Assembly: GCF_032813545.1 (NCBI RefSeq)
Contig: NZ_CP136520.1
Span: 4,458,001 to 4,522,000, forward strand
Direction of reading: 5' to 3'
Length of the DNA stretch: 64,000 nucleotides
From: Nodosilinea sp. E11
GTDB taxonomy: Bacteria > Cyanobacteriota > Cyanobacteriia > Phormidesmidales > Phormidesmidaceae
In this document: piece after piece, positions 16,968 through 23,353 of the stretch
Numbering within the stretch: position 1 is the stretch's first letter
How the letters are laid out: every line of letters starts with the position of its first letter
Made by a program: the position numbers and the translations under genes
The notes under the pieces: model-generated
Databases searched by the model: none
What the model was told of the DNA's origin: nothing
The model's input: only the letters and a program-made list of their open reading frames with translations

Positions 16968-17552
16968 TTACTGAGGCAGGCCTAGTACAGAACAGGGCGT
17001 GTGATCGGCCAATCGCCGCACTAGCTGGTGCTTAGCGGTGTGACAGCCCAGCATCAGCACCTCGGCATCCATTTCTCGGGCCACCGTGCTCAACTCAGTG
17101 GCCACTTCACCAATTCTCAGGTGGGCATCGAGGGACCCTCGCCACTCGCTGGCCAGACAGCGGGCTTGCCAAAGAATGCGATCGGCGTTAGCAATGGTTC
17201 TAGGGCGACTTTTATCGACCACATAAACCACATGCACCATAACCGGGTTGGGCTTGGCTAGGCGTGTCTGGTGGGCAACGCACAGGGCTAAATCTAGGGC
17301 CGCTTGGCTATGGGCAGAGCCGCTGTACCCCACCACAAAGCTGATGGTTTGCTCATCTGGGTTTGAGGTTAAATTAACCTTTTTAGGCCGAGCCAAGAGC
17401 ACCATACTTGAGGCCAAATCAGAGCGCCCGAGGGTAGCCTCAAGGCGCGTGATCATGGGTTTTAGCGAGGTATAGCCTGCCAAAGCCGGTAGGTTATGGT
17501 CAATCGAAAGAGACCGCCTTTGGGAGGCAGTACCATGGGATTTGAGCTGCAT
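16968..17552 (-). CDS. Universal stress protein (UspA family)
   Basis: A 194-residue cytosolic protein with one USP domain from about residue 68 (VVGYSGSAHSQAALDLAL) to the end. The typical C-terminal ATP-binding GxxGxxS is replaced by LGCHTAKHQLVRRLADHTPCSVLGL, so nucleotide binding is uncertain. The first 65 residues form a separate extension with a Lys/Arg-rich patch. GGAGGG lies seven bases before the ATG. It stands alone; the trigger is unknown. Confidence 0.8.
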   Translation of the reverse strand: MQLKSHGTASQRRSLSIDHNLPALAGYTSLKPMITRLEATLGRSDLASSMVLLARPKKVNLTSNPDEQTISFVVGYSGSAHSQAALDLALCVAHQTRLAKPNPVMVHVVYVVDKSRPRTIANADRILWQARCLASEWRGSLDAHLRIGEVATELSTVAREMDAEVLMLGCHTAKHQLVRRLADHTPCSVLGLPQ

Positions 17553-18032
17553 AAGACCCTCCTGGAGTCTATTTAGGGACAGCGAACAAGCCGCGTTTCC
17601 ACGACTTAGGACACTGAAACAATCAATGCATGGGGAATGCTGATGGTTCAGTCTCCCTCAATGCCGACGAGGTTAGCTGACGGGCTAGGGCTGAGAGACG
17701 CCCCTCTCCGATTACCCTCTGGTGGGTGTTAAGAACTCGGAAACACGCCCCTTATACTGGTTCCCCCGCTCTAGAAACATCAAATGAAACTAGATTAGGC
17801 TGACTTGTTTGACTCCTAAATTGTAGAAGCGAAAATCTAAAAGCGTCAACAAAATGCTTGCAATATGTGACTAATTGTTGCGCCCTATACTGACTGGCGA
17901 TCGCCAAGTTATTTTTATTTTCTCAGTGGATTTACCGACTTAAATACACCCATTCATAAGGATGAAGACTAAAGTTTTTGTGGTTTTTTAGGCTTAATTT
18001 AAGCATCCATCTAAAGAAGTATTTTTGCTTTT
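17553..18032. other. Intergenic region, no gene seen
   Basis: A spacer of 480 bp upstream of the stress protein and downstream of the aldo/keto reductase (both on the minus strand). No frame, RNA or clear repeat was recognised. The AT-rich part near 17940-18030 could contain a terminator for the reductase. Confidence 0.45.
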
Positions 18033-19232: not shown

Positions 19233-19784
19233 ATGAATCGCCGCTCTTTGCTCCGGGTCGCCCTAGGCCTTTGCCTGGCCTGGCTTAGCTGGTTTATCTA
19301 TCCGGCTTCGGCCTTGGCCTTAGGCGGTGCTCAAATTCCTTTAGGAGAGCCTGCCCCCGAGTTTACTCTGCCCACCAATGCGGGCGACGGCGAAATTGCC
19401 CTGGCCGATTTTCGCAACCAGTGGGTGGTGCTGTACTTTTACCCCCGCGACTTTACCTCCGGCTGCACCATTGAGGCTCAGCGGTTTCAGCGCGATATCG
19501 CTGAGTACCAGGCCCGCCATGCCCAAATTATTGGCATCAGCGCCGACAGTGTCGAGTCTCACGCCGAGTTTTGCGATGCCGAGGGGCTCGAATTCCCGCT
19601 GCTGTCTGATCCTAAGGGCAAGGTGAGCAAGGCCTATGGCTCTTGGTTAGGGGCGATGTCGCTGCGACACACCTACATCATTGGTCCCGATGGCACAATG
19701 CGATCGCGCTTTTTAGGGGTGCAGCCGGTGATTCACAGCCAGGAGGTGTTGGCCGAGTTAGATGCGTTGCAGCGAGGGGCCTAG
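19233..19784 (+). CDS. Exported peroxiredoxin Q (BCP type)
   Basis: A 183-residue thiol peroxidase with an N-terminal signal or anchor (hydrophobic to about 30, ending PASALA). The peroxidatic Cys78 sits in FTSGCTIEAQRF. The resolving Cys five residues later in typical BCP proteins is replaced (Arg at that position), and the next Cys is near 117 in AEFCDAEG. It may therefore be resolved by another Cys or by a partner thiol. The location would be periplasm or thylakoid lumen. It is divergent from the aldo/keto reductase. Confidence 0.88.
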   Translation: MNRRSLLRVALGLCLAWLSWFIYPASALALGGAQIPLGEPAPEFTLPTNAGDGEIALADFRNQWVVLYFYPRDFTSGCTIEAQRFQRDIAEYQARHAQIIGISADSVESHAEFCDAEGLEFPLLSDPKGKVSKAYGSWLGAMSLRHTYIIGPDGTMRSRFLGVQPVIHSQEVLAELDALQRGA

Positions 19785-19976
19785 GCGAGGGGACGCTTAG
19801 GGCGAGATAGGTAGGCTGACCTTAGCCCGTGGCTAGAAGTCCCGATTTGATCGCTGGCCGCAGCTTTATTACAAGATTCCAAAACGCCCCGCTGAATTTG
19901 TTCTAGGGAAATAGAATCTAAAACGGTGATACAGTATTCGATCTTTGACTTGGGACAACTTTAGGGGAATGGGCGC

Positions 19977-21260
19977 ATGAATTCGTTGGGACGACATATT
20001 TTAGTTGAGTTTTTTGGCTGTTCTGCCGATATTCTCAACGATGTGCCGCTGATTGAGAGCAGCATGGTGGGGGCTGCTGCCGATGCTGGGGCGACGGTAA
20101 TTAGTTCAGTGTTTCACCACTTCTCGCCCTTTGGCGTGTCGGGGGTGGTGGTCATTCAAGAGAGCCACTTGGCGATTCACACCTGGCCTGAGTATCGCTA
20201 CGCCGCCGTAGACCTGTTTACCTGCGGCGACACTGTTAACCCCTGGATTTCGTTTGACAAGCTCAAGGTGGCCTTTAAAGCCGACTACGGCTCGGCCCTA
20301 GAGATGAACCGAGGCCAGCTCGAACTGCTAGAGCGCATTGATGTCGACCTAGGCGAACTGCGAGACGAGATCACCAACAAGCTGATCACCCCTAAGCAGA
20401 GCCGCAGCGTTTGGTTTACCGACAAAAACGACGACATTGCGCTGTCGATTCGCCACAAGGGCGATCGCGTCTTCCGCGAAAAATCGCCCTACCAAACCGT
20501 CGAAATTTTTGACACCTTTGCCTACGGCAAAATGCTCACCATCGACAACATGGTGATGTGCAGCGAAAAGGATGAAAATGCTTACCACGAGATGATCATC
20601 CACGTGCCCATGCTGCTCAACCCCAGCTTCAAAGACGTGCTGGTGATCGGTGGCGGCGACGGCGGCAGCGTGCGCGAAATTTTGCGCCACCCCCAAGTCG
20701 AAAACGTCACCATGGTCGAAATTGACGAAGCGGTGGTGCGGGCTTCAAAGGAGTTTTTGCCCTCGCTATCCGGCGCGCTCGAAGACCCCAAGCTCGACCT
20801 GCGGATCGAAGACGGTATTGCCTTTGTGGCCAACGCTCCCGACGCTAGCTACGATCTAATTGTGATCGATTCGTCTGACCCGGTGGGGCCGTCGGAGGGG
20901 CTGTTTAGCACCGCCTTTTACGAGCAGGTGTATCGCTGCTTGAAGCCGGGCGGCGCGATCGCGGCCCAGAGCGAGTCACCCCGGTTTAACCAGCATGCCT
21001 TTGTGGATATTCACCACTGCCTCAAGGGTATCTTTGGTGACGATAATGTGTTCTGCTACCTGGCGTTTATTCCCACCTACCCCACGGGTATGTGGAGCTT
21101 TAACTACGCCACCAAGGGTGCGGCTCACCCACTGGAGGGGATGAATGCAGCGAAATCGGAAGCGTTTGCGGCTGAGCACGGTTTGCAGTACTACAACGTG
21201 GGCATGCACCAGGCGGCCTTTGCCCTGCCCACCTTTGTGCAGACTATGCTGAAAGGGTAG
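19977..21260 (+). CDS. speD/speE: Fused S-adenosylmethionine decarboxylase and spermidine synthase
   Basis: A 427-residue fusion that joins two consecutive steps of spermidine synthesis. Residues 1-125 are a class 1b AdoMet decarboxylase: the pyruvoyl-forming Ser63 in QESHL, His68 in HTWPE and Cys83 in FTCG sit at the same numbers as in the Thermotoga enzyme. A linker near 125-145 leads to an aminopropyltransferase domain with GGGDGG at 225-230 and the catalytic Asp298 in IDSSDP. Self-cleavage at Glu62-Ser63 would free a small beta chain and leave the synthase on the alpha chain. The downstream agmatinase-family gene could supply putrescine. Some SpeD relatives have changed substrate, so the first activity needs assay. 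Confidence 0.95.
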
Positions 21261-21273
21261 AGCAGCTTGTGGG

Positions 21274-21305
21274 AGATAGGAGAGGCCATGCTTCTCCTAT
21301 CTTTT
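21274..21305 (+). terminator. Rho-independent terminator of speDE
   Basis: AGATAGGAGA at 21274-21283 pairs perfectly with TCTCCTATCT at 21293-21302, followed by a short T-run. It lies 13 bp after the stop codon. Confidence 0.85.
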
Positions 21306-21334
21306 GGCTTCTGCGTTGCCCATGGCAGCTAACT

Positions 21335-21763
21335 TTAGCTAAATGGATTGGTGACTGTAAGGCGATTCTCGATCTTCAGTCCATTCTGCATATCTTCGCT
21401 ATAGAGAATAGTTGCCTCAGCATCTAGTGCAGCAGCGCAGATCAAGCTATCCCAAAAGGAAAGCTGGTATCGGACTCGTAAAGCCGAGGCCTGGAGCAAA
21501 GTTGCTTTAAATAGATGCGTTACCTGACAACGCTTGTAGAACGCTATAACGACCTTCGAAATTTGAGTTTCGCTAAAGCTGGCTTTTTGGAGCAAATTTT
21601 TACAGACTTCGTTGATTACCTGGGTGCTGACTAACAAGCCTGGATCCGCAACAATAGCTTTTGAAACTTGGTGCTTGGCTTCATCTTGCCGACGATTGAA
21701 AGCGTAGAGCCAGATGTTGGAATCGACAAAGCAGCTGTTTGGCTTTACTACATCACTGGTCAT
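21335..21763 (-). CDS. PIN-domain toxin (VapC-like)
   Basis: A 142-residue PIN-fold nuclease. The first acidic residue is in FVDSNIWLYA, the central one in the ELSFWDSLICAAA-like region, and further acids in YSEDMQNG; together they would bind Mg2+. The start at 21763 (MTSDVVK) overlaps the antitoxin end by 11 bp, the usual translational coupling. VapC toxins cut RNA, often tRNA, and are blocked by the partner. The pair sits between speDE and the agmatinase-family gene. Confidence 0.85.
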   Translation of the reverse strand: MTSDVVKPNSCFVDSNIWLYAFNRRQDEAKHQVSKAIVADPGLLVSTQVINEVCKNLLQKASFSETQISKVVIAFYKRCQVTHLFKATLLQASALRVRYQLSFWDSLICAAALDAEATILYSEDMQNGLKIENRLTVTNPFS

Positions 21764-21977
21764 AGAGGTCTTCACGGGTTTTGGGCATGAAGTTGTCGAT
21801 ATCGAGGGGATGATCGAGCAAGCTCGCAATCATGTCTTCTTCCCCGTCGGGGCCTAGGGGCTCTGGCATGAGCAGAATGACTTTTACCTGAGCGCTATTG
21901 CCAAAGGTCTGCTGGTATTGAGGAGGGATTGCGATCGCGCCATTTTCGATTTTGGTCTCAAATTCCACCGCCTGCAT
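21753..21977 (-). CDS. Antitoxin partner of the PIN-domain toxin
   Basis: A 74-residue protein. The N-terminal part, with IENGAIAIPPQYQQTF, looks like the swapped-hairpin AbrB/VapB type of DNA-binding domain. The C-terminal acidic tail, PLDIDNFMPKTREDLYDQ, would bind and block the toxin. The ATG at 21977 has GAGGG eight bases before it. It is upstream of and overlaps the toxin gene. It probably represses its own promoter, which lies in the 57-bp divergent gap to the agmatinase-family gene. Confidence 0.75.
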   Translation of the reverse strand: MQAVEFETKIENGAIAIPPQYQQTFGNSAQVKVILLMPEPLGPDGEEDMIASLLDHPLDIDNFMPKTREDLYDQ

Positions 21978-22034
21978 GCAATTCCCTCGCAAGTTCAATA
22001 CTGCTAACCCTACGCTATCGCTAGTATCTGCTCT

Positions 22035-23090
22035 ATGACCACCTCAACTGCCAATCTGCACAACTTTGACCCCAGCGGTGTGGGCCTCGACAACGGCAAC
22101 CTCTACGGCTTGCCCTGCGACTACGACACCGCAGGCATTATTGTCTTTGGGGTGCCCTGGGAAGTGACAGTGTCGTACCACCAGGGCACTGCCCAGGGGC
22201 CAAGGCGGGTGCTAGAGGCCTCGCCCCAACTCGACCTGTACGATCGCGACAATCCCGAGGGCTGGCGACAGGGCATCTATATGCCACCCCTACCCGAGCA
22301 CTTGCTTGAGCTCAACCAACAGGTGCGCGAGACGGCCAACCGGGTGATTCAGGCGACGGAGGAGGGAGTGGCGATCGCATCTCAGCCCCTCCTTCAAGCC
22401 GATTTAGACAACGTCAACCACGCCTGCGAGCAGATGACCGGCTGGCTCTACGCCCAAACCGCCGCCGCCCTCGACGCTGGCAAGCGGGTGGGGGTGATCG
22501 GTGGCGACCACAGCGTGCCGCTGGGCTACCTGCAAGCCCTGGCCGAGCGCCACGCCGACTTTGGCGTGCTGCACATCGATGCCCACGCCGACCTGCGCCA
22601 GGCCTACCAGGGCTTTCGCTACTCCCACGCCTCGATTATGTATAACCTGCTGGGGTTGCCCCAGATGAGCAAACTGGTGCAGGTGGGCATTCGCGACATT
22701 TGCCACGACGAGGTGGCGTTGATTAAGCATTCGGGTGGCCGCATTGTCACCCACTACGACGCAGTGGTCAAAGAAAACACCTACCGGGGCATTCCCTGGA
22801 TGCAGCAGTGCGAGGCGATGGTGGCAGCGCTACCGGAGAAGGTCTACATCAGCTTTGACGCCGATGGCCTCGACCCCAAACTCTGCCCCAGCACTGGCAC
22901 CCCGGTACCGGGCGGGCTGGAGCTAGAAGAGGTGTTTTGCCTGCTGCGCCAGGTCATCCGCAGCGGGCGGCAGATTATTGGCTTTGACCTCTGTGAGGTG
23001 GGCGATGGCGAGTGGGATGGCAACGTGGGGGCCAGGGCGGTCTACAAGCTGTGCTGTTTAATGGGGCTACTCAATTCGGCTGCTCTTTGA
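22035..23090 (+). CDS. speB: Agmatinase / ureohydrolase family enzyme
   Basis: A 351-residue Mn or Ni metallohydrolase of the arginase fold. Metal ligands are in place: His159 in GGDHS, Asp182-His184-Asp186 in DAHADLR, and Asp275/Asp277 in SFDADGLDP. Agmatinase, giving putrescine and urea, is the best guess because the fused speDE lies just upstream on the same strand. Alternatives in cyanobacteria are arginase, guanidinobutyrase and the nickel-dependent guanidine hydrolase; the hypA/hypB-like partners of the last are absent here. The substrate loop SHASIMYNL differs from that of E. coli SpeB. Confidence 0.85.
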   Translation: MTTSTANLHNFDPSGVGLDNGNLYGLPCDYDTAGIIVFGVPWEVTVSYHQGTAQGPRRVLEASPQLDLYDRDNPEGWRQGIYMPPLPEHLLELNQQVRETANRVIQATEEGVAIASQPLLQADLDNVNHACEQMTGWLYAQTAAALDAGKRVGVIGGDHSVPLGYLQALAERHADFGVLHIDAHADLRQAYQGFRYSHASIMYNLLGLPQMSKLVQVGIRDICHDEVALIKHSGGRIVTHYDAVVKENTYRGIPWMQQCEAMVAALPEKVYISFDADGLDPKLCPSTGTPVPGGLELEEVFCLLRQVIRSGRQIIGFDLCEVGDGEWDGNVGARAVYKLCCLMGLLNSAAL

Positions 23091-23263
23091 ACGGGCCGTT
23101 CAGCACCGGGGGAAGCTAGGTTCAGGCAAAGGGATTGAGGAGCCGGTAGGTTAGCCACGCCAGCCACCCTCAGCAACTTTGCCAAAGGAACCTCGCAAAA
23201 GGCGGAAACGCCGTGGCATTATGATAAAAATAGCTGTGTTGTTTAGAGCTTGAGAAAGCACCT

Positions 23264-23353
23264 ATGGATATTCTGTCCTTCGGCTGGGTTTCACTACTGG
23301 TCGTCTTCACCTTCTCTCTGTCGATGGTAGTTTGGGGTCGCAACGGGTTCTAA
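23264..23353 (+). CDS. petN: Cytochrome b6f complex subunit VIII (PetN)
   Basis: A 29-residue single-span thylakoid protein. It begins [12 protein letters not shown] and ends [10 protein letters not shown], the nearly invariant PetN sequence. The ATG is at 23264 and the TAA at 23351-23353. It is required for assembly and stability of the b6f complex. A 66-codon membrane-protein gene begins 19 bp downstream. Confidence 0.96.

Follow-up and report, generated by a model that had tools for sequence, protein, structure and literature searches.

A predicted self-processing SpeD-SpeE fusion beside an agmatinase-type ureohydrolase in the cyanobacterium Nodosilinea sp. E11

Results

A speD-speE fusion gene

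We analyzed a 64,000-nucleotide stretch of the Nodosilinea sp. E11 genome (contig NZ_CP136520.1, positions 4,458,001 to 4,522,000; hereafter the window). A gene on its forward strand (19977..21260, +) encodes a 427-aa protein in an open reading frame that begins with ATG at 19977, contains no internal stop and has a stop codon that ends at 21260. Pfam identified AdoMet_dc at residues 7-113 (E 4.5e-39), followed by Spermine_synt_N at 145-197 (E 3.4e-12) and Spermine_synth at 200-381 (E 2.5e-59). NCBIfam scores exceeded the cut-offs for both halves: 138.1 vs 75.65 for SAM_DCase_Bsu, 304.4 vs 249.55 for speE, and 331.4 vs 260 for polyamine aminopropyltransferase. Based on these profiles and on full-length relatives, the product is assigned as a class 1b AdoMet decarboxylase (AdoMetDC; residues 1-113) joined to a spermidine-synthase-type aminopropyltransferase (residues 145-426), with SpeD first, in one uninterrupted frame. 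A preliminary description of this DNA had proposed a SpeD-SpeE fusion at exactly these coordinates, and the profile scores confirm it.

Residues 63, 68, 83 and 298 are Ser, His, Cys and Asp, respectively, as the preliminary description had read them. In an alignment of 20 fusions, S63, H68, C83, D228, D298 and D301 are all invariant (20/20); the alignment takes in five non-cyanobacterial rows (L080-L084, 53-60% identical), whereas a 21st row (L089) was left out owing to stop codons inside its stretch. At the level of the enzyme itself, we are highly confident in predicting a bifunctional, self-processing AdoMetDC-aminopropyltransferase.

Predicted self-cleavage and substrate of the SpeD half

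The SpeD half aligns with the AdoMetDC of Thermotoga maritima (1tlu) from residues 1-114 to residues 1-114 without a gap; residue numbering is therefore identical in the two proteins. The same Ser63, His68 and Cys83 occur in the T. maritima enzyme (1tlu, 3iwb), which is a stand-alone protein, whereas the SpeD half is the N-terminal domain of a fusion. In 3iwb, a solved structure of the processed enzyme, the 62-residue chain B corresponds to query residues 1-62 and the chain A match begins at query residue 64, as expected if cleavage occurs before Ser63. By homology, the proenzyme would self-cleave between Glu62 and Ser63, releasing a predicted beta chain (residues 1-62; 19977..20162, +) and turning Ser63 into the pyruvoyl group at the end of a predicted alpha chain (residues 63-427; 20163..21257, +) that carries His68, Cys83 and the whole aminopropyltransferase. 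The preliminary description had likewise called for a 62-residue fragment and a synthase that stays on the alpha chain, and the comparison with 3iwb points to the same processing. The beta chain and the N-terminal part of the alpha chain would together decarboxylate AdoMet; roles of Ser63, His68 and Cys83 in SpeD processing and catalysis are described in the available text of PMC10407285.

The preliminary description had added that some SpeD relatives use arginine or ornithine instead. The available text of PMC10407285 does document such switches among SpeD homologs, and the catalytic triad alone cannot distinguish AdoMet from arginine/ornithine SpeD. According to the same source, one proline that true AdoMetDCs keep is not conserved in the arginine type (SpeDA), although the available text does not say which one. 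The conserved central region of the fusion retains its two prolines, Pro51 and Pro71, each invariant in 20/20 fusions, and closely tracks T. maritima AdoMetDC. For SpeDC, four diagnostic residues (Gln, Thr, Phe, Tyr) are given (PMC10407285), and anomalous SpeDs are placed there in genomes lacking SpeA/SpeC, where they occur either without SpeE or alongside another SpeD. The host, unlike these genomes, has SpeA and a single SpeD that is fused to SpeE: PF02675 had one match in the host genome, the fusion itself, and a search of that genome with the fusion protein returned, besides itself, just a weak stretch of 31% identity. The genomic context of SpeDA and SpeDC was thus not found in the host. 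With SpeA present, one SpeD and the AdoMetDC prolines kept, the switch, although real in the literature, is very improbable for this SpeD half. A SpeD tree (32 rows) was hardly resolved and had long branches.

The synthase half, its product and the linker

The aminopropyltransferase (SpeE) domain (residues 145-426; 20409..21254, +), recognized by Pfam, NCBIfam, alignment and Foldseek, contains GGGDGG at 225-230 (invariant, 20/20), Glu248, and the DxxD pair D298/D301. Remaining on the alpha chain, it would move the aminopropyl group to an amine acceptor to give spermidine, with Asp298 as the base.

AlphaFold2 predicted the fusion (20 sequences, single chain) with a mean pLDDT of 72.5 and a pTM of 0.64. 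All 50 PDB matches listed by Foldseek for this model are spermidine synthases, and the best is Synechococcus spermidine synthase 6qmm (6qmm_B, E 5e-27). This protein shares the fold and the GGGDGG...VEID region at 43% identity in the Foldseek alignment; unlike the fusion, it is a stand-alone enzyme that has no SpeD domain. Between the two halves of the model, residues 114-161 (20316..20459, +) have pLDDT <50; the linker spans residues ~114-144, and the end of the segment enters the SpeE N-terminal domain. The linker is predicted to be disordered, and the proposal in the preliminary description that a fusion may channel the intermediate finds no support here.

The synthase half might go on to spermine, which would make the fusion a spermidine/spermine synthase. 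Its Asp228, Gly230 and Glu248 follow the pattern given for bacterial spermine synthases in the available text of PMC11107197, and four other AdoMetDC-aminopropyltransferase fusions (two Pelagibacter, one deltaproteobacterium and one Krumholzibacteria) are reported there and in PMC12803844 to have made spermine or spermine/thermospermine in E. coli. However, 6qmm, a spermidine synthase solved with putrescine and spermidine, carries the same D/G/E pattern, so the pattern is not diagnostic of spermine synthase, and NCBIfam places the synthase half in spermidine synthase. Bacterial AdoMetDC-aminopropyltransferase fusions, some of them producing spermidine, were reportedly also described by Green et al. 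in 2011. Judging from the sequence, spermine is a possible product of the fusion, but a spermidine/spermine synthase seems unlikely. For thermospermine synthases, the motif given in the available part of PMC11107197 is GGGEGA, with two known exceptions that have Asp; the fusion has GGGDGG.

Distribution and ancestry of the fusion

The closest named loci to the fusion belong to Nodosilinea strains (97% identical). Within the host's family, 46 of 57 genomes contain the fusion, 41 at full length and five as fragments or broken pieces. In a sample of 292 genomes from the phylum, the full-length matches listed came from three genomes, all of this family, and none from outside it; a strongly diverged fusion may lie beyond the matches listed. 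PF02675 was found in 229 of the 292 genomes, indicating that SpeD itself, unlike the fusion, is common in the phylum. The fusion is typical for its cyanobacterial family, and this kind of fusion is already described and active elsewhere; in the literature searched, chiefly open-access, we found no earlier mention of it in cyanobacteria. Phage records yielded no closely related full-length fusion among the matches listed; the best of these, from Microcystis phage MaAM05 (88% covered, 35% identity), is annotated as two genes.

We built a SpeE tree of 52 rows with a midpoint root, in which L085 was left out, solo rows were thinned to every third and long branches were flagged; six rows (L087, L088, L153, L156, L159 and L162) are labeled solo merely because their loci are cut. 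Family fusions and two solo Nostocaceae SpeE formed one group (94/91), which stands beside fusions from Bacteroidota, Calditrichota and KSB1 (98/92), with one more cyanobacterial solo SpeE among them. Transfer of the fusion, in one direction or the other, appears likely from this tree.

Solo SpeE that group with the fusions occur in genomes G117 (C3:5274444-5275313; L036), G199 (C1:5807989-5808840; L035) and G156 (C10:9395-10240; L037). The stretches examined (20, 19 and 10.5 kb, respectively) showed no SpeD near them, and each genome has one SpeD match; these genes may be split products of the fusion, or unfused relatives. Acetoanaerobium noterae has speD and speE as separate frames and, behind them, the apparent beginning of a ureohydrolase frame, a gene order that makes the fusion look like two adjacent operon genes joined in place.

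A neighboring ureohydrolase and an insert between the two genes

A gene predicted to encode a 351-aa ureohydrolase (22035..23090, +; PF00491, E 1.2e-52) lies downstream of the fusion and, given the conserved neighborhood, is likely its functional partner. The NCBIfam agmatinase model TIGR01230 scored 159.6 bits, under its cut-off of 174.3; hence we file the protein only as an agmatinase-type ureohydrolase. A match to this protein with at least 46% identity occurs in each of the family's 46 fusion genomes (partial in G332, G339 and G350). In 39 of the 46, ureohydrolase and fusion share contig and strand, and the matched stretches lie 7-1847 bp apart (in 20 genomes, 7-99 bp); in the other seven, the ureohydrolase is on another contig, and two of these are fusion fragments. 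A second host ureohydrolase (C7:3180771) has ~30% identity. A promoter/terminator scan of 19700-23300 returned nothing above chance.

In three metagenome-assembled genomes (MAGs), a ureohydrolase with 46-50% identity follows 26-70 bp behind the SpeE part: L080 (bacterium MAG), L081 (Bacteroidetes MAG) and L088 (MAG labeled Chitinophaga pinensis, in which the N-terminal part of the fusion is missing where the contig starts). None was found within the stretch read at L082, L083 and L084. In Persicobacter, speD overlaps a 52%-identical agmatinase-family gene, and an arginine decarboxylase is close by. On Persicobacter psychrovividus plasmid pPP3 (L271), this overlap is 4 bp, the arginine decarboxylase lies 3.9 kb downstream, and the 13-kb stretch has no annotated speE.

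Between the fusion and the ureohydrolase, a PIN-domain toxin-like gene and a small upstream ORF run antisense to the polyamine genes (21335..21998, -; PIN E 3.6e-11 for 21335-21829). No family was found for the 81-aa product of the small ORF. This segment is absent or replaced in other strains, and it is an insert that lies outside the polyamine pathway. Across 18 Nodosilinea-clade loci with both genes, the gap holds alternative toxin-antitoxin-like modules at one site (compare L064:7389-8040). An antisense PIN pair like that of the window is present at four loci (L063, L065, L066, L073), a sense nucleotidyltransferase/HepT-like pair or homologous gap at nine (L062, L064, L067, L068, L069, L071, L074, L079, L086), and a short gap matching neither module at five (L070, L075, L076, L077, and L085, which has a small-ORF remnant); for these assignments, the Pfam search covered only the window, L064 and L068. 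Elsewhere in the window, a c-di-AMP riboswitch (RF00379, 67.8 bits, gathering 38; 17648-17811, -) lies upstream of a gene (16968-17552, -) with a weak universal-stress-protein match (Usp, 26.8 bits vs a cut-off of 24).

The host pathway and the order of steps

The host encodes a SpeA arginine decarboxylase (TIGR01273, 775.5 bits vs a cut-off of 624.1), and we found no match to agmatine deiminase in its genome. PF02784 matched three host proteins: SpeA, a protein with typical LysA length and score, and a LysA-like relative (C7:136158). We rejected the third protein as an ornithine decarboxylase (ODC) or NspC, as its best family is LysA (247.3 bits, under the cut-off of 297.9) and its nspC score is 43.2. 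With SpeA present, no deiminase match and no ODC-like PF02784 protein, agmatine is the likely entry point, and both orders of steps require a ureohydrolase. Cyanobacterial decarboxylases of the aspartate-aminotransferase fold are held in the available text of PMC8503589 to be probably unrelated to polyamines. The fusion would work in the arginine pathway, in which SpeA makes agmatine and the neighboring ureohydrolase removes urea.

The gene for the third PF02784 protein adjoins an ORF that reads like asparagine synthetase (G000 C7:134000-139000, L117). None of 16 same-genus genomes compared has a third PF02784 match above 24 bits, and this locus is possibly a specialized-metabolite cluster.

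If putrescine is made first, the ureohydrolase would act as an agmatinase and aminopropyl transfer would come next, so that arginine is converted to agmatine, then putrescine and then spermidine. We consider this order slightly likelier than agmatine-first on sequence grounds, because the ureohydrolase is of the same class as Alr2310, a proven Anabaena agmatinase (by mutant and extract assay; PMC4234267, available text). The likeness to Alr2310 is drawn from length class and Nostoc orthologs. In three genomes (G094, G150, G192), the sole ureohydrolase match is a full-length ortholog with 59-60% identity; we took these genomes as Nostoc based on 15 kb of small contigs that match named Nostoc plasmids at 100%. 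In the available part of PMC2242806, the sole ureohydrolase listed for Nostoc/Anabaena PCC 7120 is Alr2310 (346 aa), and Synechocystis Sll0228 is 306 aa long. These orthologs, together with the proven activity of Alr2310, count for putrescine-first, as does a report that Anabaena homospermidine needs a deoxyhypusine synthase homolog. The settings differ in that the ureohydrolase in the window adjoins a speDE fusion, whereas Alr2310 is not known to do so.

Alternatively, the aminopropyltransferase half could act on agmatine to make N1-aminopropylagmatine, from which the neighboring ureohydrolase would then remove urea to give spermidine, bypassing putrescine. According to the available text of PMC11107197, 17 of 18 bacterial spermidine synthases tested, including the Microcystis enzyme, also aminopropylated agmatine to N1-aminopropylagmatine, but no sequence motif tells agmatine users from putrescine users. 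The gene content of the host (SpeA, no agmatine deiminase match, and a third PF02784 protein that is LysA-like, not ODC) would suit this order, as would the adjoining ureohydrolase in the host, at two Bacteroidota MAG loci and in one MAG of an unnamed phylum. Ten fusion genomes with an agmatine deiminase match (whole or fragment) still keep the ureohydrolase, although the deiminase could supply putrescine. We also count for agmatine-first that the carboxyaminopropylagmatine route is cited for Synechocystis, and that homospermidine synthesis from an agmatine dimer is reported to be finished by a ureohydrolase in Thermus (PMC10981699, available text). On the other hand, the length of the ureohydrolase puts it with agmatinase Alr2310 (~350-aa class) and apart from Synechocystis Sll0228 (306-aa class), and Nostoc genomes in which no fusion was found have retained this ureohydrolase clade. 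The Alr2310 length class and the Nostoc orthologs, together with a deoxyhypusine-synthase-like gene in one relative (G353, below), lowered agmatine-first from the leading reading; it retains a substantial probability, though it is not the order we favor.

Triamine modules in relatives that lack the fusion

Among the 57 family genomes, three (G002, G014 and G317) encode NspC-like proteins (219-231 bits, under the cut-off of 409.05), and all other nspC matches are ≤48 bits. The same three genomes, and no others, have PF16653 matches of 145-149 bits, the rest of the matches to this family being ≤71 bits; in G317, the NspC-like and PF16653 genes lie tail to tail on one small contig. All three genomes lack the fusion and have kept the ureohydrolase (73-79% identity), and no carboxyspermidine/CAPA-type pair of comparable score matched in the host genome. 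The carboxy-type pair is thus present in 3 of 11 fusion-less genomes vs 0 of 46 fusion genomes (Fisher p = 0.0056, kinship ignored); because the ureohydrolase tree places G002 and G014 as sisters, these represent at most two independent events. The carboxyspermidine/carboxyaminopropylagmatine dehydrogenase-decarboxylase pair likewise adds an aminopropyl unit, but its enzymes are unrelated and use aspartate semialdehyde (PMC11999265, available text).

Another relative, G353, has neither the fusion nor the pair; it has a PF01916 match of 124.6 bits (deoxyhypusine-synthase-like) and has kept the ureohydrolase (69%). This gene set equals the set-up reported for Anabaena homospermidine synthesis. 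The ureohydrolases of G353, G002 and G014 cluster in their gene tree with those of the remaining four Nodosilinea rows (96/95), suggesting that the ureohydrolase was inherited while the triamine module changed.

A strict rule of one module per genome is contradicted by G315, in which PF01916 occurs together with the fusion. None of the three modules is present in seven of the 11 family genomes without the fusion. Within these seven, a ureohydrolase ortholog is missing as well from G341 (95% complete) and G344 (97% complete) and from the incomplete G335, G340 and G348, whereas G319 (partial copies) and G329 have kept the ureohydrolase. The complementarity of fusion and carboxy route around a shared ureohydrolase fits both orders of steps and, on its own, cannot separate them.

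Discussion

Viewed purely as an enzyme, the fusion is unremarkable, its type being known and its host group new. It resembles the bacterial AdoMetDC-aminopropyltransferase fusions in the available text of PMC11107197 and PMC12803844 in having SpeD followed by SpeE on one ORF, a class 1b SpeD and intact catalytic residues, and homologous fusions described there were active in E. coli. It differs from them in its cyanobacterial host and its conserved adjoining ureohydrolase; some of those fusions make spermine, whereas the activities of the present one are predicted. Animal spermine synthase (3c6k), said in the available text of PMC12803844 to derive from a bacterial fusion, also has a SpeD-like domain followed by an aminopropyltransferase domain; however, its SpeD domain has lost decarboxylase function, whereas the SpeD residues of the fusion are intact. 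Taken as a whole, the explanation that we favor with good confidence is that of a predicted bifunctional, self-processing polyamine enzyme that would operate within the arginine pathway, with putrescine-first the slightly likelier order.

A broader and more tentative reading, which we regard as doubtful, is that agmatine, not putrescine, may be the node of triamine synthesis in the Nodosilineaceae. Three interchangeable modules (the AdoMetDC-aminopropyltransferase fusion, a CAPADH/CAPADC-type pair, and a deoxyhypusine-synthase-like homocoupling enzyme) would each use agmatine as substrate, with the guanidino group stripped afterwards by a single, vertically inherited ureohydrolase. If this is true, the fusion would be an AdoMetDC-N1-aminopropylagmatine synthase, run as a two-gene unit with the ureohydrolase.

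The value of the locus is as a test case, in which close relatives swap triamine-forming modules and keep one ureohydrolase. This module swapping lets one ask whether putrescine or agmatine is the source of cyanobacterial spermidine; most bacterial spermidine synthases tested accept agmatine, which has reopened this question (PMC11107197, available text).
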